IMG/VR virus record: IMGVR_UViG_3300025889_000333
Span: 1-38,416 of that record
DNA: 38,416 nt
Direction: 5' to 3' (one strand)
Source of the DNA: a virus
Both the position numbers and the translations under genes were made by a program. Below the pieces are notes generated by a model, which did not search any database, was not told the DNA's origin, and was given only the letters and a program-made list of their open reading frames with translations. This document shows, in pieces, positions 3,966-16,987 of this stretch. The stretch's first letter is position 1; the number at the start of each line of letters is the position of its first letter.

Positions 3966-4673
3966 TTATTCCTCAATACATTTTAACCAAAATACCAGTA
4001 AGTATCTATCTCCTGATTCTACTGCAAGTCCCCTGTGCATATGAGTAAAACTCGGAAAAATTAGAGCGTGGCCTGTAGGTAAAGGCTCGACTGTACCACG
4101 TTTCAAAAACTCAGTTCCGCCACCTTTGTACTTTCCAGTGTTCAAAGGAACTACCATACTTATATCAGCACTTGCATCATGATGCCAAGCACCTTGTTTT
4201 TTATCCTTTAAATTATAGTTGGCTATTTGTATTCCACCACCGTTTACGTGTCGATTCCAAATATTCAAAAATATAGGATTACCTATAGTATATATCGTAT
4301 GGAACAAGGAATGGAAGATTTCTGGGCAATTATCTTGAAAAGTTATTTCGGGTATTTGACGCAGTTCATCCTCATCTGGGTTGGGTTGAAACCCATGAAA
4401 TGCCTCTAAATTTTTCATTTCATCAAGCAATATTTCGCAAAACTTTTCTGAAAAGAAAGGCACTGTGTAAACATCTTTAAGGGGTTCTTGTATAATCTTA
4501 TCTAATTCAGTGTCTTTTCGTTGTGTGTCGCCTTCTTGTTTGTAGAACTCCATTATCGGTTCTACTGATTGTGATACAGCATCAAACGTATTTTTATCTA
4601 TATACCAGTCAGCAGGATGCTCTAAAAGTATGTTTTTGGTTTTGTATCTTAGATCCTCTGCTGTGTTGCTCAT
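3966..4673 (-). CDS. 2OG-Fe(II) oxygenase-like protein (fifth in window)
   Basis: 235 aa. The C-terminal half has the double-stranded beta-helix signature of 2-oxoglutarate/Fe(II) dioxygenases. The HxD pair is His164/Asp166 in GAWHHDAS. It is followed by a GGGTEF turn, a distal His in SFTHMHRG (His211 or His213), and a conserved Arg (Arg223) in GDRYLLVFW that would bind 2-oxoglutarate. The N-terminal ~110 residues are unrecognised. Such enzymes hydroxylate proteins, nucleic acids or small molecules; the substrate is not predictable here. Its start overlaps the preceding 108-aa gene by 4 bp. It stands apart from the four other oxygenase-like genes at 14.7-17.0 kb, among tail genes, so a virion or lipopolysaccharide target is possible. 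Confidence 0.8.
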   Translation of the reverse strand: MSNTAEDLRYKTKNILLEHPADWYIDKNTFDAVSQSVEPIMEFYKQEGDTQRKDTELDKIIQEPLKDVYTVPFFSEKFCEILLDEMKNLEAFHGFQPNPDEDELRQIPEITFQDNCPEIFHSLFHTIYTIGNPIFLNIWNRHVNGGGIQIANYNLKDKKQGAWHHDASADISMVVPLNTGKYKGGGTEFLKRGTVEPLPTGHALIFPSFTHMHRGLAVESGDRYLLVFWLKCIEE

Positions 4674-6863: not shown

Positions 6864-7307
6864 TTATACCTCATGCCATTCTTTGCCTTCAAACAACAAA
6901 GATTCTGCTTCTCTTCTTCTTATAAGTCCCTGTAATACTTTGCCACCAGCTTTATTCCAGCGTTTAATTTGTGCTGGTACACCTTCATAATCTTTAGCGT
7001 TTAGAACTTTTAACAAAGTTGAGGCTTTTAAATTTGCAGGTCCTAAATTAAATACCCAAGAAACTAGTGCATCAAACTGATTTTGTTCTAGATCAACTTC
7101 TACAAGATCATTTACATATCCTTCGTATTCTTCCATTTCATGTAACAATAAATTATCAGCATCTTCTTGTTTCATTGTATCGCCTTCTTTTACATTCTTG
7201 GTAGAACCATATCCTATAGTCCATACTCCAGCTGCACATTTGTAAGCTTCAAGCTCACAACCTTCAAACTTCTTAATAAGAGCTAAACCTTCTTGTGAAA
7301 TTTTCAT
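6864..7307 (-). CDS. Endolysin, GH24 (T4/P22-type) lysozyme
   Basis: 147 aa from the ATG at 7307, chosen because AAGGAG lies 7 bases upstream; longer forms run into the holin gene. It cleaves the beta-1,4 bond of peptidoglycan. The GH24 catalytic triad is visible with correct spacing: Glu15 in KKFEG, Cys24, and Thr30 in WTIGYGST. This makes it the E-C-T subtype, with Cys in place of the T4 Asp. The family hallmarks FNLGPANLKASTLL and IKRWNKAGGKVLQGLIRRR follow. No signal peptide or anchor is present, so access to the wall needs the holin encoded immediately upstream. Length matches phage lysozymes. Confidence 0.95.
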   Translation of the reverse strand: MKISQEGLALIKKFEGCELEAYKCAAGVWTIGYGSTKNVKEGDTMKQEDADNLLLHEMEEYEGYVNDLVEVDLEQNQFDALVSWVFNLGPANLKASTLLKVLNAKDYEGVPAQIKRWNKAGGKVLQGLIRRREAESLLFEGKEWHEV

Positions 7308-7308
7308 C

Positions 7309-7788
7309 TTATTCTCCTTTGTTGGATGTGTTAGATGCTCCAAAATAGAACGAAATAATTGCACTAGCTAATCCTCCAAGATAACCCAAAACAAGATTTA
7401 TTAAAGCTTCGGAGTTTTGTTCTGGCGGTTGTAACGTAACCAAAAATATATAACCTAAAAAGCCACCTATAGTTGCTATACCAATTATTCTTGCAGTCCA
7501 ATCTTTGCTAAACATACCTCTAGCATTTTGTTTGTCTTGAGTTTCTAGTTTGAATACATCTACTTCGAGCTCTTTCATTTGAACTTCGAATTGTTGTTCA
7601 GCTTTCTTGAGTTCTAACATTTGTTCTGGTGTAGCGTTTTGTATTGCTCTTTCTATTGATTTCTGATCATTTGGTACACCCAGAACATCTGCAATCATGT
7701 TTGCAGCCATGCCTCCCATAGGTCCACCTATTGCTGTTCCTAATGTAGGGGCTACAGCACCTACTATGTTTTTAAGTAATCCCTTCAT
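7309..7788 (-). CDS. Three-transmembrane holin (gene-transfer-agent type)
   Basis: 159 aa. It has hydrophobic segments at about 7-35 (Gly-rich), 100-119 and 128-149, separated by a charged helical region rich in Glu/Lys/Gln (58-90). This matches the three-TM holin family known from gene-transfer agents and many marine phages. The protein would form the inner-membrane lesion that releases the endolysin. It overlaps the XhlA-like gene by 4 bp (ATGA), and the endolysin start lies only 2 bp beyond its stop. A compact lysis cassette is therefore clear. Confidence 0.85.
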   Translation of the reverse strand: MKGLLKNIVGAVAPTLGTAIGGPMGGMAANMIADVLGVPNDQKSIERAIQNATPEQMLELKKAEQQFEVQMKELEVDVFKLETQDKQNARGMFSKDWTARIIGIATIGGFLGYIFLVTLQPPEQNSEALINLVLGYLGGLASAIISFYFGASNTSNKGE

Positions 7789-8000
7789 ACCATCACCATA
7801 TTTACTACTACTGCTATAAATAAAGCACCTAAAAAACCAAAAACACCAAAGGTAGTAGCTTTGATAGTTGAATTTATATGAGTAATTTCTTCTTTAATAT
7901 CAGAAAATTCATTAAATGCGGTTTTCCAACGCTCGTGCGAAATTGTTTCTAGCTTTGTAAGTCTTGCTACTAAATCGTTTGTAGTTATTTCTTGTTTCAT
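7785..8000 (-). CDS. XhlA-like coiled-coil/membrane lysis accessory protein
   Basis: 71 aa. An N-terminal coiled coil with heptad-like spacing (residues ~5-45, including LVARLTKLETISHERW) precedes one C-terminal transmembrane helix (50-70). This is the architecture of the XhlA/hemolysin family that cooperates with holins. It starts one base after the stop of the cyclase gene (TAATATG) and overlaps the holin by 4 bp, so the sensory/curli genes and the lysis genes are translationally contiguous. The family assignment rests on architecture only. Confidence 0.6.
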   Translation of the reverse strand: MKQEITTNDLVARLTKLETISHERWKTAFNEFSDIKEEITHINSTIKATTFGVFGFLGALFIAVVVNMVMV

Positions 8001-8001
8001 A

Positions 8002-9753
8002 TTATGCAGTAGTAAATATTTTTATTTTATTCTTTTTACCTTTTACAAAAATACCATCAAGTTCTTTTAGCATTATTTGATCACTAAAGGTATCAACTTT
8101 AATGGTATCATAACCTATGACTAAATCTTCGCCAACTTCTTTAGTTGAGCTTTCAAGTCTAGCTGCTAGATTTACAGCATCTCCAATAGCTGTATAATCG
8201 AATCTAGTATCACTACCCATATTACCAACAACAGCATATCCAGTGTTTACACCCACACCTATTTCTACACCAATGTCAGCTTTTTTTATATTTTCTTGTA
8301 TTTCTTTAGCACAAAGCACGGCTGCTGTTTCATGATTTGGTAAATCTATAGGAGCATTAAATATAGCCATCATGGCATCGCCAATATATTTATCTACCAT
8401 TCCTCCATATTCTTTAACTGCGTTTGCTTGAATAGTTAAAGCTTTGTTCATAATCAAAGTTACCTCTTCTGGTTCTAGTCGTTCTGACATAGCAGTAAAC
8501 CCACGGACATCTGTAAAGAGAAAAGTGCAATACCTTCGCTCACCACCCAAAACTAATGACTCTGGATTGTCTTGTAACTTTTTAACTTGTCTTGGATCAA
8601 GATAATGCTCAAACTGTTTTTTAATTTGTTGGCGTAATTTATACTGTTTTCTAAAGTTTAGATAGAAAGCAATAGCACCAGCAATGAATTGAGATACAAA
8701 AGTCCATGAAAAATCTATTAAATAACCTTTTTGAATGCTAAAAGCTCCTGTAAAGCCCGTAGTAAAGAGCAAAATTACAGCAAGGCTTACGCCCTTAGTT
8801 ACACCAAAATAATTAATTACAAGCCACGTCAACGACACAAAAATTGTAAAAATTAAAATTTCCAACGCAAGTGCAAAATCTGGAATAAATGGAGAGTTTT
8901 CTATCAATATTGATTCAGATAGTGCAGCTTGTATTTTATGTGGTTCTAATAATCCAGTCGGTGTTGCAACTTGTGGCATGATTCCTGGAGCAGTAACACC
9001 AACAAATACAAACTTACCTGCAACATCCATTTCTTTTAATGTTGTTTGTGGTGTATCTACCCAACTGATCCATTTACGACCAAGACTATCTGTTTTAACG
9101 GGTGGTATACCTCTTACAGCTATTTCTTGTATACCAACATCATTGGTAGTAATGATGTAAGTTCGAGCTCCTGTAAGTGTTTTTAAGACTTCTGTACCAA
9201 AAGAGCTAACATAACCATCAGGAGTTTTAAGTAACAGTGGTATTCTTCTAACCAAGTTATCTATATCAACTGGTGCACTAGCAATACCTTGATTTGCATT
9301 TTCTTGTAGCACGTCTATGTTTTGTATAACGCCAGGTGTCGACATACCACCAGTATCATCGCCTTTGATAACAGTGCCTGTAGTTTTGGGATAGCTACCA
9401 TTAGCATTTTCAAACATAGCTAACACAGAAGGAGCATATCCAAGGGTAGTGGCAAACACTTTATCTCCACCCATGCGATCGGCTTGTGGAAAACCTATGA
9501 CCCAACCAACACCTATAGCACCTTCATTTATTAAATCTACTTGTATTTGTGCAAGTGTCCTCCTAGGAAATGGCCAACCACCTTGTTTTTCAATATCTTC
9601 TTCTGTAATGTTCAATACAACAAAATTACCAGATGGCTCTGGTGTCGTTACAAAAGCATCAAATATTTTGAGTTTAAATATTTCAGTTGGAGTGCTTTGA
9701 AATATAAGTGGCAGTGATAATACAACCAATATAGGAAAAATAAGTTTATTCAT
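8002..9753 (-). CDS. CHASE2-domain class III adenylyl cyclase
   Basis: 583 aa inner-membrane receptor cyclase. An N-terminal membrane segment (3-18) is followed by a periplasmic CHASE2 sensor (~20-290; VLNITEEDIEKQGGWPFPRR and KFVFVGVTAPG are typical). Three membrane helices follow (~292-315, 320-339, 347-366), then a linker and a cytoplasmic cyclase domain (~405-583). The catalytic residues are all present: metal-binding Asp415 (FTDVRGFT) and Asp459 (KYIGDAMMAIF), substrate-selecting Lys455 and Thr521 (DYTAIGDAVN), and transition-state Asn528 and Arg532. Lys/Thr points to ATP as substrate, hence cAMP. It overlaps the FecR gene by 4 bp (ATGA). In bacteria, CHASE2 cyclases are often encoded beside FecR-domain proteins, and that pair is kept here in a phage. 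The signal sensed is unknown. Confidence 0.93.
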   Translation of the reverse strand: MNKLIFPILVVLSLPLIFQSTPTEIFKLKIFDAFVTTPEPSGNFVVLNITEEDIEKQGGWPFPRRTLAQIQVDLINEGAIGVGWVIGFPQADRMGGDKVFATTLGYAPSVLAMFENANGSYPKTTGTVIKGDDTGGMSTPGVIQNIDVLQENANQGIASAPVDIDNLVRRIPLLLKTPDGYVSSFGTEVLKTLTGARTYIITTNDVGIQEIAVRGIPPVKTDSLGRKWISWVDTPQTTLKEMDVAGKFVFVGVTAPGIMPQVATPTGLLEPHKIQAALSESILIENSPFIPDFALALEILIFTIFVSLTWLVINYFGVTKGVSLAVILLFTTGFTGAFSIQKGYLIDFSWTFVSQFIAGAIAFYLNFRKQYKLRQQIKKQFEHYLDPRQVKKLQDNPESLVLGGERRYCTFLFTDVRGFTAMSERLEPEEVTLIMNKALTIQANAVKEYGGMVDKYIGDAMMAIFNAPIDLPNHETAAVLCAKEIQENIKKADIGVEIGVGVNTGYAVVGNMGSDTRFDYTAIGDAVNLAARLESSTKEVGEDLVIGYDTIKVDTFSDQIMLKELDGIFVKGKKNKIKIFTTA

Positions 9754-10847
9754 TTACTTTGGGTGATTGTAATAACACTATCACTACCTCCGTTGACTTT
9801 AATTGTATTAGAAACACCATCTTGTATCAAAATTACTGTGTAAGCATTACTACCGTTCAAGTCTAATCTAACACTTTCGCTTACATTTCTTCTAAGACTA
9901 ATGACATTACCTGTAATTAAAGTGGTTATTTGTGTGTCAGGATCATTACCTATTAGAGTACCAACTATTTGTGTGCTTGTTGCTAATCTTAATTGGTCTT
10001 CTTCTTTTTCTACAGCAAGTGCATCTATTACATCTAACAAATCTTCAAGAAAGTTTACATCAAGGTAATTTATATCTAGCTCTGTGAATTCGAGTTGATC
10101 TTCGTCTAAGTAGTCTTCTGCTAAGTAATCTATATCTAAATCGTTAAAGTCAAGCAAACTGTTGGTTTGTGTGCTTGTATTTTCTTCTACAATAATTTCT
10201 TCTTCTTTTGGTGGGCTAACAATAAGCATATTATCTATAAGATCTAAAGTAAGATCTAAAATTACAGGTTTTGTAGGAGATGATTCAAACACACTTACGG
10301 TTGTTGCCTGATAAGGTTTATTCAGCAAAACAGAACCAGTGGCTGTAACAACTTCTATCTCACCACTAGATAAACCAAATTTATTTGGTAATAAAATAAT
10401 AAGACTCCGGCCTAGCTCATCTACAGTGGCTGTAAAGTCAGTGCCTCTTATCGCTATATTAGCTGTTGGTGTTTTAAGTTGTATGTTTTGTTTATCTATT
10501 CTGTTTAGATTGCCTGTAATAAACCTAGCTGTGCCTAAACCAAAAGTAAGAGCCATCTTAGACTTTGATGGGTCTGGATCGTAAATATATTCATCAATAA
10601 GTAATTGTGAATGTTCGGTTAGTTTTACAGTAGACTTATCAAGAAAAGTGATAGCCATTCTGCCATCTTTTGTTATAGCCTCATCGTTGCTTTGTATAGC
10701 AAATTCTAAATTAGCTTCGTAAGATTTATCTCTTAATATTTGTGCAGAACCTCTAAGCTCAGATATATCACCTATATCAACAGCTTGTTGAGGTTCCCCC
10801 ATCGTTTTGTGTGATACAAATATTACTATTAGAAGTAGTGCCTTCAA
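9750..10847 (-). CDS. Secreted FecR-domain protein with C-terminal curlin-like repeats
   Basis: 365 aa if it starts at the TTG at 10847, the start that supplies a signal peptide (KALLLIVIFVSHKTMG). An internal ATG at 10802 would remove it. The TTG start makes it overlap the curlin-like gene by 71 bp. A FecR domain spans ~50-140 (SQLLIDEYIYD, then LKTPTANIAIRGTDFTA). Unlike TonB-linked FecR regulators it has no cytoplasmic anti-sigma part, and no sigma factor gene is nearby. Residues 215-285 are an acidic linker with repeats like LDIDYL/LDINYL/LDVNFL. The last ~40 residues (LDLNGSNAYTVILIQDGVSN, then VNGGSDSVITITQ) have the alternating beta pattern and Q-x-G-x-x-N motif of curlin repeats. Probably a periplasmic or exported partner of the amyloid and the cyclase sensor. 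Confidence 0.88.
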   Translation of the reverse strand: MKALLLIVIFVSHKTMGEPQQAVDIGDISELRGSAQILRDKSYEANLEFAIQSNDEAITKDGRMAITFLDKSTVKLTEHSQLLIDEYIYDPDPSKSKMALTFGLGTARFITGNLNRIDKQNIQLKTPTANIAIRGTDFTATVDELGRSLIILLPNKFGLSSGEIEVVTATGSVLLNKPYQATTVSVFESSPTKPVILDLTLDLIDNMLIVSPPKEEEIIVEENTSTQTNSLLDFNDLDIDYLAEDYLDEDQLEFTELDINYLDVNFLEDLLDVIDALAVEKEEDQLRLATSTQIVGTLIGNDPDTQITTLITGNVISLRRNVSESVRLDLNGSNAYTVILIQDGVSNTIKVNGGSDSVITITQSK

Positions 10848-11508
10848 TTTTTAACCAATCCCTTGCTAGTGTTGATGACTGTATAATGTTAAATGTGTTA
10901 CTGCTTCCATCTAAGTCCATATAAAAATATGCTGAATCAGATGATGTATTCCCTGAATAACCACTTCCAGTAAAGTTAAAGACGTTTGAACTACCATTAA
11001 TATCAACAAAATTAATAGCATTAGCATAATCAATATCTATATCAAATTGATTAGAACCACCTAATATAGTGTAGTCTAAATCAAGGTAAGATGAATCTGC
11101 ATTTTCAGCTATTTTTATATCAAATTCGTTACTACTGCCAGTGACATCAATCATTAAATTAACATAATCAGCACTTATAAGTCCTGTGCTGTTAAGCAAT
11201 ATATCCATAACATTGCTATCACCATCAAACTCAAAAAATCCAGTAAAGTTATCGCCATCAATAGCGTCTGATCTAAATAAGTTGCTTGAACCGATTTGAT
11301 TTATATCTAGTGTCATGCTTACACCATCAAGGTCAAGAGCAGTCATGGTGCCAGAAACAGCTTCGGTTCCACCAATAAGGTTAGAACTACCTAACTGTTC
11401 TAGATCTATAGATGCAGTATTTCCGTTTTGATCTATGTAAATTTCATTGTCAGCTGCAACGTGAACAAAAGAAAAAACAAGAAATAAGCACGTTAGTTTA
11501 TTCTTCAT
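10777..11508 (-). CDS. Secreted curlin-like amyloid-repeat protein
   Basis: 243 aa from the ATG at 11508; a GTG immediately before it is the alternative. An N-terminal signal peptide (KNKLTCLFLVFSFVHVAA) precedes DNEIYIDQNGNTASI, which matches the curlin Q-x-G-x-x-x-x pattern. Numbering from the GTG, at least seven units follow. Each has alternating polar/hydrophobic residues ending in GSSN or a variant (residues 41, 74, 97, 125, 151, 173, 202), then a hydrophobic-Asp/Asn-Ile/Phe strand such as FDIDI or FNIIQ. Spacing is 22-33 residues, looser than the 22-23 of E. coli CsgA/CsgB, and many positions carry Asp. The gene overlaps csgG by about 11-14 bp. Curlin family membership is inferred from motif, secretion signal and position after csgF-csgG; it is the likely cargo. 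Confidence 0.8.
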   Translation of the reverse strand: MKNKLTCLFLVFSFVHVAADNEIYIDQNGNTASIDLEQLGSSNLIGGTEAVSGTMTALDLDGVSMTLDINQIGSSNLFRSDAIDGDNFTGFFEFDGDSNVMDILLNSTGLISADYVNLMIDVTGSSNEFDIKIAENADSSYLDLDYTILGGSNQFDIDIDYANAINFVDINGSSNVFNFTGSGYSGNTSSDSAYFYMDLDGSSNTFNIIQSSTLARDWLKIEGTTSNSNICITQNDGGTSTSC

Positions 11509-12355
11509 CACTCGATTCTACTCCTACTTCTTCTGTTTGTAAAACCCAATAACCTTTGTCAAAACCCTGGTTAATTATCTCAAGAACACCACCTTCAATA
11601 GCTTTCATGAGGGCTATGGTAGACGATTCGTTTCTAGCGTTGCCTAACTCTATCTCTACGAGCTCTGTGTCCATTTCAATAAACCTGAATACATCATTGG
11701 TTTTACCATAACTAAATATGGTTTTTTGACTAAGAACTTCTAATAATACTTCTCCTGTTGCTACAGAAATCATGCGTAGACTTACAGTTATATTATCCTC
11801 TCTATACTGAACACTATTACCAATGCCTAGATAACGAGCTCCTGATCCACCAGATTCAAGGTTTGCTTCGTATGATATTACTGCACCTTCTATAAGTATG
11901 CCTGCAAAGAGTAATGGTGCTAATTGTTTCTTTTTTTCTTCTTCAGAAGCAAATTGCTCTCTTGCCGAACGTATAAGCTGTCTTTCTTTGGTTAAATTAT
12001 CTAAACCAACTCTTTCTACAACCCTAAAAAACTGTCCGTTACCAGCGTGTTTTAAGGCTCTTATAAGTAAAGCATTAGGTTGTTGAGTTATAGCCGTACT
12101 GAACAAAGCAAACTCAGAGTTTGATTTACGTTGACCTGTTTGATCTGTGAAAGCCAAAGGATATACAGCAACAACAGGTCTAACCTTTGGTATAGGTGCG
12201 TTTTTTAATTTATCTGATTGAAGTTCCTGGATAGAAACTATGTTGTGTTGTTTAAACCTTTGCTCGTATGTATCTTCAAACTGGTCAAATATAGAGCAAC
12301 TAGAAAGTAAAAGAACCAATAGGCAAAGTAATCTCGGTGACATTTCCATCAGCAT
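11498..12355 (-). CDS. csgG: CsgG, outer-membrane curli secretion channel lipoprotein
   Basis: 285 aa, close to the E. coli length (277). It would form the ring-shaped outer-membrane pore that exports curli subunits. A lipoprotein signal (LLCLLVLLLSSC) gives lipobox Cys20 followed by Ser, which favours the outer membrane. Family landmarks align along the whole length: VAVYPLAFTDQTGQ, FRVVERVGLDNLTKERQLIR, ILIEGAVISYEANLESGG, GARYLGIGNSVQY, SVATGEVLLEV, VFRFIEMD. In the constriction loop the E. coli Phe56 appears kept (Phe85), while Tyr51 and Asn55 are not obviously matched. Start choice among Met codons at 12355, 12349 and 12343 is uncertain; all lie inside csgF, so translation is coupled. 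Confidence 0.95.
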   Translation of the reverse strand: MLMEMSPRLLCLLVLLLSSCSIFDQFEDTYEQRFKQHNIVSIQELQSDKLKNAPIPKVRPVVAVYPLAFTDQTGQRKSNSEFALFSTAITQQPNALLIRALKHAGNGQFFRVVERVGLDNLTKERQLIRSAREQFASEEEKKKQLAPLLFAGILIEGAVISYEANLESGGSGARYLGIGNSVQYREDNITVSLRMISVATGEVLLEVLSQKTIFSYGKTNDVFRFIEMDTELVEIELGNARNESSTIALMKAIEGGVLEIINQGFDKGYWVLQTEEVGVESSDEE

Positions 12356-12812
12356 CGGTTATTCGTAATGTAATAAATTGTCCATCAGATGTATATTCTA
12401 TAGTATTACCTTCGAGTTCTATAGTGCCTTCCGTTTGTGGTGTTTCACCAAATAGATTATCCACTAATTGTCGTGATAGTTGTGCATAGATTCTTGATTC
12501 TAAATTACGCAAAAAACGAGCTAGTGTAGTGTTTTCTTTATCTCTTTCTATTTGTTCTTGTAGTGCTTTGATTTCTTCTTTTATTGTAAGTTTTCTGGTG
12601 TACTGCTGGTTCTCTATTGTTAAATAGTGACTAGACGTGCCAACACCACTAAAGCTAGGTGACTTAAATTTGTGAACGATCTGATCAGCCTTTATGTTTT
12701 GTACAAAAATACCAATTATTAAAATTATGCCAATAAGCACTATTGACCACAGCAATCTATCTTTTTCAAGCTGTTCTTTTTCTAATTGTTTTTTAGTCTT
12801 TTCTTTGGTCAT
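12300..12812 (-). CDS. csgF: CsgF-like curli assembly factor
   Basis: 170 aa from the ATG at 12812, preceded by AAGG at 9 bases; a TTG at 12830 is less likely. In curli systems CsgF caps the CsgG pore on the outside and couples secretion to nucleation. A Lys/Glu-rich N-terminus of about 20 residues precedes a hydrophobic segment (22-38), a signal peptide or anchor. The mature part opens with IVHKFKSPSFSGVGTSSHYL, matching the CsgF pattern FxFRNPNFGG that inserts into CsgG. The helical middle (LARFLRNLESRIYAQLSRQL) and beta C-terminus (DGQFITLRITDADGNVTEIT, then LPIGSF) also follow CsgF. The unusually long charged N-terminus is atypical. It overlaps csgG by up to 56 bp. Confidence 0.88.
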   Translation of the reverse strand: MTKEKTKKQLEKEQLEKDRLLWSIVLIGIILIIGIFVQNIKADQIVHKFKSPSFSGVGTSSHYLTIENQQYTRKLTIKEEIKALQEQIERDKENTTLARFLRNLESRIYAQLSRQLVDNLFGETPQTEGTIELEGNTIEYTSDGQFITLRITDADGNVTEITLPIGSFTF

Positions 12813-13143
12813 CTCTATCAGCCTTAGCAATTTTATTGCTATCTATTAGTTGTGGCACACCTAATATTGTTTTAATTAGTGTGTCCTGGCGTATGATTTC
12901 ATTATCTAAACTACGCACTCTGTCTATTAAGGCTACTAAAATACCATGCTGTGAGTCAAGTTTTGTGCCTAGACGTTCTTCTATAGACGCTATCTGTGAT
13001 TCTACTTTTTCATCAACAGTGTCTAGTTTGGCTTCCATGCCATCAACAATACGTATAACCAGTTTGTATATAAACCAACCAAGACCTATTGCTGCTGCGA
13101 TAGGAAATCCTACCTCTTGAATTATGGTTACTGCTGAATCCAC
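12793..13143 (-). CDS. Membrane-anchored coiled-coil protein, holin-like
   Basis: 116 aa. A single N-terminal transmembrane helix (about 11-31, GFPIAAAIGLGWFIYKLVI) is followed by a long coiled coil with Asp/Glu/Ile/Leu heptads to ~105. The layout resembles BhlA/UviB-type holins and similar small phage membrane proteins. No catalytic motif is present. Its end overlaps csgF by about 20 bp, and it abuts the 264-aa virion protein upstream (shared TAATG-type junction), so it is the first membrane gene leading into the curli module. It could be a lysis factor or an accessory of the secretion system; sequence does not separate the two. Confidence 0.55.
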   Translation of the reverse strand: MDSAVTIIQEVGFPIAAAIGLGWFIYKLVIRIVDGMEAKLDTVDEKVESQIASIEERLGTKLDSQHGILVALIDRVRSLDNEIIRQDTLIKTILGVPQLIDSNKIAKADRDDQRKD

Positions 13144-14710: not shown

Positions 14711-15208
14711 TTAATCGCCTATGGCTACGTCAAAAGCTAATACATATCTATCTATTTTAGGTATTCCTTTTTCAGCTTGATGATATAGCCTTGAATCAAA
14801 TAAATTCCAACAATTAATTACAGGTTTTATTTTATTACTGTCGCTAAATACGGTGCCAAAATTTGTTTCAGTTAAATAAGCTATTGCTGAAATATTAAAG
14901 TTTTGACAAGTATCTGCGTGGTTATGCCTTATTGAATCTATTTTTTCGCCTGCTTTATTTAAAAACACCCAACATTTTTTATGTAAAATATTTGGCTGAT
15001 AACCTAAATATTTAGATACAGTATTATCAATAGATTGATTTAGTTGTTTGTAGTCTTTGTATAGAGTTCCGTTAGATTGTATTCTTGCGTGTTCGCATTT
15101 TGGATAGTCTTTGCAACACGGGTTATTTTTAATAAAATGCCGCAGTTTTTTATGAAATTTATTAGTATTTATTTTTTTTAAAATGTCACAATAATAAGTT
15201 TCGTACAT
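14711..15208 (-). CDS. 2OG-Fe(II) oxygenase-like protein (fourth of the cluster)
   Basis: 165 aa. The order of motifs fits a 2OG-Fe(II) dioxygenase beta-helix: RHNHADTCQN supplies His97/Asp99, AIAYLTETNFGTVF is the next strand pair, and LYHQAEKG (His143) with KIDRYVLAFDV (Arg154) supply the distal His and the 2-oxoglutarate Arg. The N-terminus carries five Cys between about residues 8 and 38. It is more diverged than its three neighbours, and I assign the fold with moderate confidence. It overlaps the preceding oxygenase gene by one base. Codon use is very AT-rich. Confidence 0.6.
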   Translation of the reverse strand: MYETYYCDILKKINTNKFHKKLRHFIKNNPCCKDYPKCEHARIQSNGTLYKDYKQLNQSIDNTVSKYLGYQPNILHKKCWVFLNKAGEKIDSIRHNHADTCQNFNISAIAYLTETNFGTVFSDSNKIKPVINCWNLFDSRLYHQAEKGIPKIDRYVLAFDVAIGD

Positions 15209-15825
15209 TATTGTTTAAAATATGAAGGTAATCCAATCATAGGTCTGCCATCAAATTTATTTTGTTTAGCATTTTCACCATTTGCATCGTTGTAGTGTAA
15301 AAATACTTGCCCGCAGTCTTTACCCAGAAATGGCTCACGCCAATGCTCTAAATCACAACCACGATACATAAGCATATCACCAGGTTTAAGTTTAATCTCT
15401 ACACCATCTTTACCTTTTTTACCTGAAGGTTCTAAAAATATTGACCAATCATCTCCGCCTAAATTCATAGTAGTAGATATTTCGCATGAAGGTCTATCTT
15501 TATGTCGTTTAAGTTCATCACCATTTTTATAAATTCTTGCATAAGAATAAGTTTCTATAAGCTTTACACCTGATTCTTTTTCCATAATTGGTTTAACCTT
15601 TTGTAATAAAGTTTCCATAACTATATCAGCGTAATGTGAATAAGTTTCAGGTATTTGTTGGTCGTTCCAAACACCAAAGTATTCGGTAAACTGAGATATA
15701 TATTTTTCATCAAATAAATGTCTTGCCACCATTCTTTTATTTAAAAAATACTGATAGCAAAAATCTGCTAATTCTTCTGATATAGCATTTTTAATTATTT
15801 GGTATTTATCTTTTTTAAAACTCAT
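15208..15825 (-). CDS. 2OG-Fe(II) oxygenase-like protein (third of the cluster)
   Basis: 205 aa. The iron-binding HxD pair is His108/Asp110 (LKRHKDRPSCEISTTMNLGG), the distal His is His161 (RGCDLEHWREPF), and the final strand is GQVFLHYND. The usual C-terminal Arg for 2-oxoglutarate is not obvious at that place (Gln173 is near), a variation I recall in this marine phage subgroup. LKPGDMLMYRG is a typical strand before the distal His. It overlaps the upstream oxygenase by 4 bp and the next by 1 bp. Substrate unknown. Confidence 0.82.
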   Translation of the reverse strand: MSFKKDKYQIIKNAISEELADFCYQYFLNKRMVARHLFDEKYISQFTEYFGVWNDQQIPETYSHYADIVMETLLQKVKPIMEKESGVKLIETYSYARIYKNGDELKRHKDRPSCEISTTMNLGGDDWSIFLEPSGKKGKDGVEIKLKPGDMLMYRGCDLEHWREPFLGKDCGQVFLHYNDANGENAKQNKFDGRPMIGLPSYFKQ

Positions 15826-16370
15826 AAAAAATTTGCAACTATAACTATTCTTTTTTCATCTATATCTGGACATTCTTGATAATGTTCGAGTTTGCCGTCA
15901 AACATAATGACACTATTTTCTTTTGGATTTGAATAAAATTTTTGATTATCCTCTCCTAATACTATTGTTCTACCTTGTGAAAATTTTGTTAAATAAACTA
16001 TAACGACTTTGTGAGGAAAATTTAGATCTATGTGCGGTATGCTAGATTTAACGGAACTATGTGGCGTCATGTTTATATTCATACGATACATAACTTCTAA
16101 ATCTATGTTGTTAAAATCAAGTATTTCTTTCAATACAGAATAACATTCATCAAAATAGGTAGATACTCTTTCAGGTATAGCAGGAACTTGTTTGCCATAA
16201 CTTTGATGTGTTGGTCTGCCCAATAAACAATGAGCAAAAAAACCCATATCTTCTTCATCTGTATCAGAAACAGTTTTATCAAGGTAATACCAAGGGAAGT
16301 TATTGCTTAATACTACATTTTTTAAATTTTTATAACTTTCTGTAACTGGGTTTTTTAGATTTTTAATCAT
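15822..16370 (-). CDS. 2OG-Fe(II) oxygenase-like protein (second of the cluster)
   Basis: 182 aa. HxD is His113/Asp115 in SIPHIDLNFPHKVVIVYL, the distal His is His163 in MFDGKLEHYQECP, and Arg174 in EKRIVIVANF fits 2-oxoglutarate binding. All elements needed for activity are therefore present. It overlaps both neighbours by 4 bp. Similar proteins occur in T4-like cyanophages and other marine phages, usually without a known substrate. Confidence 0.78.
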   Translation of the reverse strand: MIKNLKNPVTESYKNLKNVVLSNNFPWYYLDKTVSDTDEEDMGFFAHCLLGRPTHQSYGKQVPAIPERVSTYFDECYSVLKEILDFNNIDLEVMYRMNINMTPHSSVKSSIPHIDLNFPHKVVIVYLTKFSQGRTIVLGEDNQKFYSNPKENSVIMFDGKLEHYQECPDIDEKRIVIVANFL

Positions 16371-16987
16371 TTATAAGGGTACCCCAAATTCCAACACACT
16401 AAGGAGTGTCTTGTCCCTTTTGTAACTGGCTTTACTCTATGCCAAACAAAAGAAGGAAAAACAATTATACTACCTTTTTCTCTAATTTCTTTACATATTC
16501 TTGGTTGGGAGCCTTTGTCTGTATTTCTAAAATCAAACTCTAAATCTCCACCTTCGTATTCTTTAGGGTCAGTGAGTGATACAGTCATACTAAGTTTTCT
16601 TTGCTTACCATGAGTATTTATATTATCTGGACTGTTGTAAGGTTCTTCACGCGAATCACAGTGCCAATCATAAAATTGTCCTTTTTTATATTCAGTAAAT
16701 TGGCAAGCCTCTGACCAATCCCATTCAAAATTCCAACCAGCACTTGTATTTGCTTGATATATGTAGGGTTGAATTTCGTTATATATCCATCTGTCTGACA
16801 TCCAAACAACATCAGATTTGCGTTTTTTCTGTATGTTTTTTAGTTCTGTATCAGTAAGATTATCTTTTTGAAAATTACCTGTAAGAGCTATTTCTTGATC
16901 TTGCTCTTTACCATAACGTACTATTTCATCACATATTCTTTCTGGTATAGCTGACTGAAAGTACCAGTAATACCATTTAAGATTCAT
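16367..16987 (-). CDS. 2OG-Fe(II) oxygenase, prolyl-hydroxylase (PKHD) type (first of the cluster)
   Basis: 206 aa and the clearest member of the set. His109/Asp111 lie in GQFYDWHCDSREE, His183 in PSFVWHRVKPVTKGTRHSLV, and Arg193 in the same motif binds 2-oxoglutarate. YEGGDLEFDF between them is the standard PKHD turn. Enzymes of this type hydroxylate prolyl or other side chains. It follows the polyglycine adhesin-like gene directly (11 bp gap), so hydroxylation of tail or fibre proteins, or of host surface molecules, is a reasonable but untested idea. Confidence 0.93.
   Translation of the reverse strand: MNLKWYYWYFQSAIPERICDEIVRYGKEQDQEIALTGNFQKDNLTDTELKNIQKKRKSDVVWMSDRWIYNEIQPYIYQANTSAGWNFEWDWSEACQFTEYKKGQFYDWHCDSREEPYNSPDNINTHGKQRKLSMTVSLTDPKEYEGGDLEFDFRNTDKGSQPRICKEIREKGSIIVFPSFVWHRVKPVTKGTRHSLVCWNLGYPYK

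Follow-up and report, generated by a model that had tools for sequence, protein, structure and literature searches.

Why would a pelagiphage, a virus of abundant marine bacteria, carry the genes of a bacterial curli exporter, and at what stage of infection would it use them? The question is raised by the IMG/VR virus record IMGVR_UViG_3300025889_000333, a linear stretch of 38,416 bases, called the window here. Five minus-strand genes between 12830 and 8002, all intact and in frame, encode CsgF, CsgG, a curlin-like protein, a FecR-domain protein and a CHASE2/class III cyclase, in that order. An initial annotation had described them as a curli-type secretion module carried by a phage and joined to a FecR/CHASE2-cyclase arm; profile searches bear this out, returning CsgG, CsgF, FecR and CHASE2 at significant scores, and we regard the identity of the module as practically certain. 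The five-gene set is not new, and the window is a further member. What is added to published work is the linkage of the module to lysis genes, corrected labels for two of its genes and the absence of a cyclic AMP (cAMP) receptor. The module and the small gene at its head, which the initial annotation had missed, are laid out as follows.

12793 to 13143, minus strand: small membrane protein of 116 residues at the head of the module, with an N-terminal transmembrane segment and a coiled coil
12300 to 12830, minus strand: CsgF, the curli pore partner (Pfam PF10614, 3.9e-18, 66 bits against a cut-off of 26; phrog_35372, 2.6e-47)
11498 to 12355, minus strand: CsgG, the outer-membrane secretion pore (Pfam PF03783, 3.7e-46, 158 bits)
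10777 to 11511, minus strand: curlin-like secreted cargo of 244 residues, with a signal peptide and GxxN/QxG repeats
9750 to 10847, minus strand: secreted FecR-domain protein, with a signal peptide, FecR domain (residues 59-144; Pfam PF04773, 5.6e-10), acidic linker and C-terminal beta domain (about 290-365)
8002 to 9753, minus strand: CHASE2-domain class III nucleotidyl cyclase (Pfam CHASE2, 7.2e-26; Guanylate_cyc, 5.8e-17)

Family landmarks are present in CsgF, CsgG and the cyclase. The pore-binding motif FKSPSFSG lies in the N-terminal part of CsgF and is conserved in alignment with the CsgF proteins of HTVC008M and Melnitz; the N-terminus itself is unusual in placing a charged stretch ahead of the hydrophobic segment, and no sequence match to CsgF was found in the PDB. 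The csgF open frame begins with TTG at 12830, an internal ATG at 12812, used by the initial annotation, being an alternative start. CsgG bears a lipoprotein signal with the lipobox LSSC, and its profile retrieves the solved E. coli CsgG (PDB 3x2r/6l7a family) at 1.4e-64. As for the cyclase, 55-57 of 57 groups (defined below) retain the metal, substrate and transition-state residues D415, K455, D459, N528 and R532; the protein is a CHASE2 class III cyclase with intact catalytic residues and is predicted to be an adenylate cyclase. The curlin-like cargo is the weakest identification of the five. Curlin_rpt was matched by 37 of 59 viral cargo orthologues at E ≤ 1 (best 8.6e-6), the alignment columns show the repeated GxxN/QxG pattern with invariant Q, G and N columns, and the AlphaFold model is an all-beta repeat (predicted local distance difference test, pLDDT, 79; predicted template-modelling score, pTM, 0.77). 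A Foldseek search with this model gave nothing significant, the CsgA fibril 8enq ranking second at E 0.52. PHROGs families exist for four of the five genes, none with an assigned function.

We assign the window to the HTVC023P-type pelagiphages because its TerL is 55.6-59.9% identical to those of HTVC023P, HTVC027P and 023Pt_psg01, and its portal protein 47-48% identical to those of the HTVC023P group (each over at least 90% of the length), and on these two proteins it is best described as a fragment of such a phage. The minus strand carries nearly all of its genes, and between the SNase gene (14317) and a tail gene (4993) they abut or overlap, with no gap above about 10 bases. A promoter and terminator scan was uninformative, since promoter-like sites were fewer than in shuffled sequences.

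The module is widespread and kept in order. A CsgG scan found relatives in 562 viral stretches, and FecR and curlin scans gave comparable totals; only the best-scoring relatives were fetched, so the sample is not random. Loci sharing a 150-base word were merged into groups, 63 of which hold fecR or the cyclase gene. Of these, 52 have csgF-csgG-cur-fecR-AC in full and 11 have part of it; the order is never permuted, and it recurs in the isolates HTVC008M and Melnitz. The ratio of nonsynonymous to synonymous substitution rates (dN/dS) has medians of 0.12-0.23 for the module genes, which are thus under purifying selection. One phage group has an extra gene, DNA cytosine methyltransferase-like, between fecR and the cyclase gene (L166:6980-8662), and in a few groups this gap holds other short, unrelated open reading frames. 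Two of 147 SAR11-family assemblies contain viral module contigs (L359 and L361, in genomes G022 and G059), pointing to infected cells, or to integrated or co-binned phage; a SAR11 host is supported, because genes for TerL, portal and capsid lie on one of these contigs as well. Three contigs of metagenome-assembled genomes labelled Pirellulales and Flavobacteriaceae (L240, L241 and L242), organisms unrelated to the host, also carry the viral module and rank ahead of the bacterial FecRs in the FecR search of the genome collection; phage DNA binned wrongly is the probable explanation.

The small upstream gene belongs to the same neighbourhood. It matches phrog_18771 (1.5e-16, unknown function), adjoins the 5' side of csgF in 38 of 44 groups as a single family in one long or two short copies, and occurs in named phages only beside curli modules. 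It has been called a histidine kinase (PMC9599517), a label that fails for this window, where the 116 residues contain no kinase domain and neither HisKA nor HATPase_c was matched in Pfam at E ≤ 0.1. A holin assignment was also rejected, its matches being sub-threshold only.

Directly downstream of the cyclase lie further genes, likewise missed by the initial annotation (6864-8000), which form a lysis cassette.

7785 to 8000, minus strand: 71-residue protein with a coiled coil and a C-terminal transmembrane segment (hydropathy), holin-like by position and topology
7309 to 7788, minus strand: phrog_1544 protein of 159 residues (3.4e-29), a putative holin with two C-terminal transmembrane segments
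6864 to 7364, minus strand: GH24 phage lysozyme (endolysin) at the end of the cassette (Pfam Phage_lysozyme, 5e-50; phrog_7 endolysin, 1.9e-62)

Lysis genes follow within 3 kb of the cyclase in 37 of the 45 groups that extend at least 2.5 kb beyond it. Of these, 19 have a GH24 lysozyme together with two overlapping Rz-like spanin genes (phrog_739 and phrog_812), and 17 have the phrog_1544 protein, in 16 cases with a GH24 lysozyme; one further group has a holin with three transmembrane segments and an unrelated M15 endolysin. The 71-residue protein sits between the cyclase and the phrog_1544 protein in 10 of the 45. The spanin pair and the phrog_1544 protein are mutually exclusive (for example at L010, L043 and L170), as if they filled one slot of the cassette. 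No profile match supported the phrog_1544 protein as a holin with three transmembrane segments.

The linkage also holds in the reverse direction. Among the nearest relatives of the window endolysin with at least 3 kb of upstream DNA, 38 of 41 carry the module upstream. With the downstream tail gene as the anchor, all 22 relatives with at least 5 kb upstream have both the module and the lysis cassette; 3-kb rows scored as module-free reflect a short-window artefact, as the module appears in the gene lists there. HTVC023P, HTVC027P and 023Pt_psg01, isolates that lack the module, have no GH24 gene before the tail gene, and an M15 peptidase elsewhere. Distance correlations with FecR are 0.76 for CsgF, 0.75 for CsgG, 0.69 for the cyclase and 0.54 for the lysozyme, against 0.24 (tail622) and 0.00 (Nt798) for two tail genes that correlate with each other at 0.64. 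Because FecR distances track those of CsgF, CsgG, the cyclase and the lysozyme above those of the tail genes, the module and the lysis cassette appear to be co-inherited, largely independently of the tail backbone.

What would such a module do beside a lysis cassette? With less than even confidence, we favour a pelagiphage type VIII (curli-type) export unit that acts late, is tied to lysis and decorates the cell with an adhesive fibre. CsgG and CsgF would form an outer-membrane pore exporting the curlin-like fibre protein, and the FecR-domain protein and the CHASE2 cyclase would form an envelope-sensing arm, in which FecR may report export or envelope state to the cyclase. In the podophage lineages the module heads the lysis cassette, is probably co-transcribed with it and would act late in infection. 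The infected cell would then display the fibre shortly before lysis, and debris, progeny and neighbouring cells could be kept together. The purpose of the module is unproven, and several points weigh against this proposal. The cargo of the window matches Curlin_rpt at 0.23, below the Pfam cut-off, and no second curlin was found in the window. The CsgE gate had no Pfam match among the ten module-region proteins of the window fragment. CsgE is likewise reported as absent by Wittmers et al. (PMC9599517); in E. coli it raises export and has been called non-essential (PMC7029224). Eight of the 45 groups, namely six podophage groups and the myophages HTVC008M and Melnitz, have no lysis genes near the module, and adjacent genes of a phage late operon may be expressed at the same time yet differ in function. 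Clumping was sought and not observed in Melnitz-infected cultures (PMC9004378). Finally, the cyclase has no known cAMP target in the phage or in most sampled SAR11 hosts: the cNMP_binding domain was not found in 138 of the 147 SAR11-family genomes (9 have it) or in any of 25 module-bearing phage records.

The main rival makes the module part of the lysis machinery itself, with the CsgG-CsgF pore breaching or depolarising the outer membrane and so timing or completing lysis, as has been proposed for Melnitz (PMC9004378). Its position in the lysis cassette and its co-inheritance with the endolysin fit this reading, and in 13 of the 26 module-bearing records searched, counting the window fragment, nothing matched phrog_812, the family of Rz1-like outer spanins. 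However, 19 of the 45 groups have both the pore and an adjoining spanin pair, related phages lyse without the module, and a lytic pore leaves the cargo, FecR and the cyclase unexplained although all are under purifying selection. We consider it rather unlikely. The synteny does lend support to an opening of the outer membrane, one of the uses suggested by the initial annotation, or to action near lysis; the annotation's suggestion that the phage alters host cAMP before lysis finds no known target.

Also unlikely, in our judgement, is that the module is late cargo (a moron) placed near the lysis genes for timing alone, changing the host surface for superinfection exclusion or nutrient uptake through an ungated pore. 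Such uses have been proposed (PMC9599517, PMC7029224), and the late operon position and the missing CsgE gate agree with them. On the other side, excluding superinfection at the very end of infection would bring little benefit, and uptake should need neither the cargo nor CsgF.

The FecR-domain protein offers a further clue. All 62 viral orthologues match the FecR domain. FecR as an iron/ECF-sigma regulator was considered and rejected: that topology has a cytoplasmic sigma-binding N-terminus and a transmembrane helix, whereas here a signal peptide precedes the FecR domain and hydropathy predicts no transmembrane segment. The protein is therefore not built like a FecR sigma regulator, and inferences on iron drawn from the FecR label are unsupported. 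Its last 75 residues are modelled at pLDDT 77-91, the remainder mostly below 50. The motif [IV]x[IV]xQ ends 64 of 64 viral FecRs; only 6 of 80 FecRs from bacteria have it, and 41 of 2944 background frames. These counts are not independent because the FecRs share ancestry and the motif was first noticed in these data. The same motif stands near the end of the curlin cargo, slightly further in, and of E. coli CsgB. Shuffle tests of the FecR tail gave a median z of 2.2 against phage curlin and 2.7 against E. coli CsgB, and only about 0.4-0.7 in two myophages against their own curlin. A structure search with the tail model returned nothing significant, many of the weak matches being alpha-crystallin-like domains. 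That the tail is a curlin repeat is thus unproven, given a weak hhalign comparison, no Curlin_rpt match among the viral FecR orthologues and the low myophage scores; engagement of the curli pathway by FecR through a curlin-like terminal motif is a lead, suggestive only. Carried further, FecR would be a CsgB-like bridge in a self-monitoring, lysis-linked amyloid exporter, its curlin-type C-terminus on the pore or fibre and its FecR domain gating the cyclase, so that the nucleotide, produced in a host nearly devoid of cAMP machinery, reports export status before lysis. This more specific scheme strikes us as improbable.

If instead the cyclase were the main product, the locus could be a signalling or nucleotide-based defence unit of the Pycsar kind. 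PADLOC PycC models do match the cyclase domain (best 1.2e-27), but they match class III cyclases generally, the cyclase is membrane-anchored by CHASE2, and none of the 25 phage records encodes a cyclic-nucleotide-binding effector. We give this reading very little credence and reject Pycsar defence, as the match is to the cyclase domain only. Least tenable of all is passenger bacterial DNA or a chimeric assembly without function in the phage: bacterial relatives of the components exist, but hundreds of contigs and isolated phages share the module, its order holds across the 63 groups and in HTVC008M and Melnitz, it is under purifying selection and GC content shows no shift across it, so this possibility, which the initial annotation had named as a test, is already refuted.

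Neither a class III cyclase nor CsgG is native to the sampled SAR11 hosts. In a search covering class III only, 2 of the 147 SAR11-family genomes had a cyclase over the cut-off and 2 had CsgG, in both cases on the contigs carrying the viral module. CHASE2 itself occurs in 15 of the 147, two of these being phage contigs. At least two SAR11 genomes (L265:6581-10558 and L298) contain an overlapping gene run of a CHASE2-SpoIIE phosphatase, an outer-membrane barrel and FecR. It makes up an uncharacterised system for sensing the envelope, in bacteria that have few regulators. The run resembles the phage module in that a FecR domain, a CHASE2 membrane sensor and an outer-membrane protein are encoded side by side; it differs in that its output is a SpoIIE phosphatase rather than a cyclase and in having no curli genes. 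Some hosts therefore own a sensing pair with another output. Elsewhere, the outer-membrane barrel NsrA feeds CHASE2 cyclases in Sinorhizobium (PMC13001267) and Burkholderia has a FecR/CHASE2-kinase biofilm operon (PMC5192318); both are precedents for a link between events at the outer membrane and CHASE2 enzymes.

Where, then, did the module come from? The initial annotation was right that bacterial genomes often place FecR and CHASE2 genes together: of 76 bacterial FecR loci, 27 encode a protein matching the CHASE2-cyclase profile, none of them with csg genes. Its view that an entire unit had been acquired from a bacterium finds no support. Close CsgG relatives occur in 5 of 385 sampled alphaproteobacterial genomes, at loci with csgF and curlins, and neither FecR nor a CHASE2 cyclase was found within about 10 kb of these five csgFG loci. 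Because these loci, few as they are, lack FecR and CHASE2, and FecR-CHASE2 pairs occur separately, the viral module looks likelier to be a union of two bacterial units. An alphaproteobacterial origin has been inferred by Wittmers et al. (PMC9599517). CsgG, CsgF and a curlin-type cargo are common to the phage module and the csg operons of E. coli and Alphaproteobacteria, whereas CsgE, CsgD and CsgC were not found in the module, and FecR and the CHASE2 cyclase are absent from the bacterial loci examined.

The five-gene set had seemed unreported to the initial annotation and is already described. Zaragoza-Solas et al. reported csgF and csgG in pelagimyophages in 2020 (PMC7029224), the Melnitz paper modelled CsgG and CsgF (PMC9004378), and Wittmers et al. 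in 2022 described the whole set from nine HTVC023P-type genomes as well as from myophages, showed its expression by metatranscripts, and proposed aggregation, superinfection defence or uptake (PMC9599517). A literature search beyond these three found no further dedicated paper on the module. The type VIII secretion system module of Wittmers et al. comes from the same phage group and has the same genes in the same order (small gene, CsgF, CsgG, curlin, FecR, adenylate cyclase), together with the second curlin not seen in the window; the main text does not mention a holin, endolysin or spanin, and it names FecR an iron regulator besides the histidine kinase label, neither of which is supported in the window. 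The Melnitz and HTVC008M clusters keep the same order with two small upstream genes and proteins about 30-48% identical to those of the window, but they contain a second curlin and adjoin tail and replication genes, not lysis genes. In HTVC008M this second curlin fuses a PA14 domain to curlin repeats (L001:7583-8908), a possible carbohydrate-binding fibre subunit. For Melnitz (MZ577097, L002:6107-8901), the paper states that curlins are absent (PMC9004378), whereas the GenBank record annotates two curlin-associated repeat proteins. Apart from the module, the window contains a run of related genes of 2OG-Fe(II) oxygenase, ferrochelatase-like and 'endonuclease V' families (14711-16987 and 3966-4673).

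For the biology of these phages, the corrected labels, with no histidine kinase and no iron-regulator FecR, should stop wrong inferences on iron, and the lack of a known cAMP receptor on either side, host or phage, poses a concrete puzzle. The self-monitoring exporter, if true, would amount to a new type of checkpoint late in viral infection. More broadly, the link to lysis turns loose proposals such as sibling capture, a pinholin-like pore or a superinfection block into a specific, testable hypothesis about late infection.

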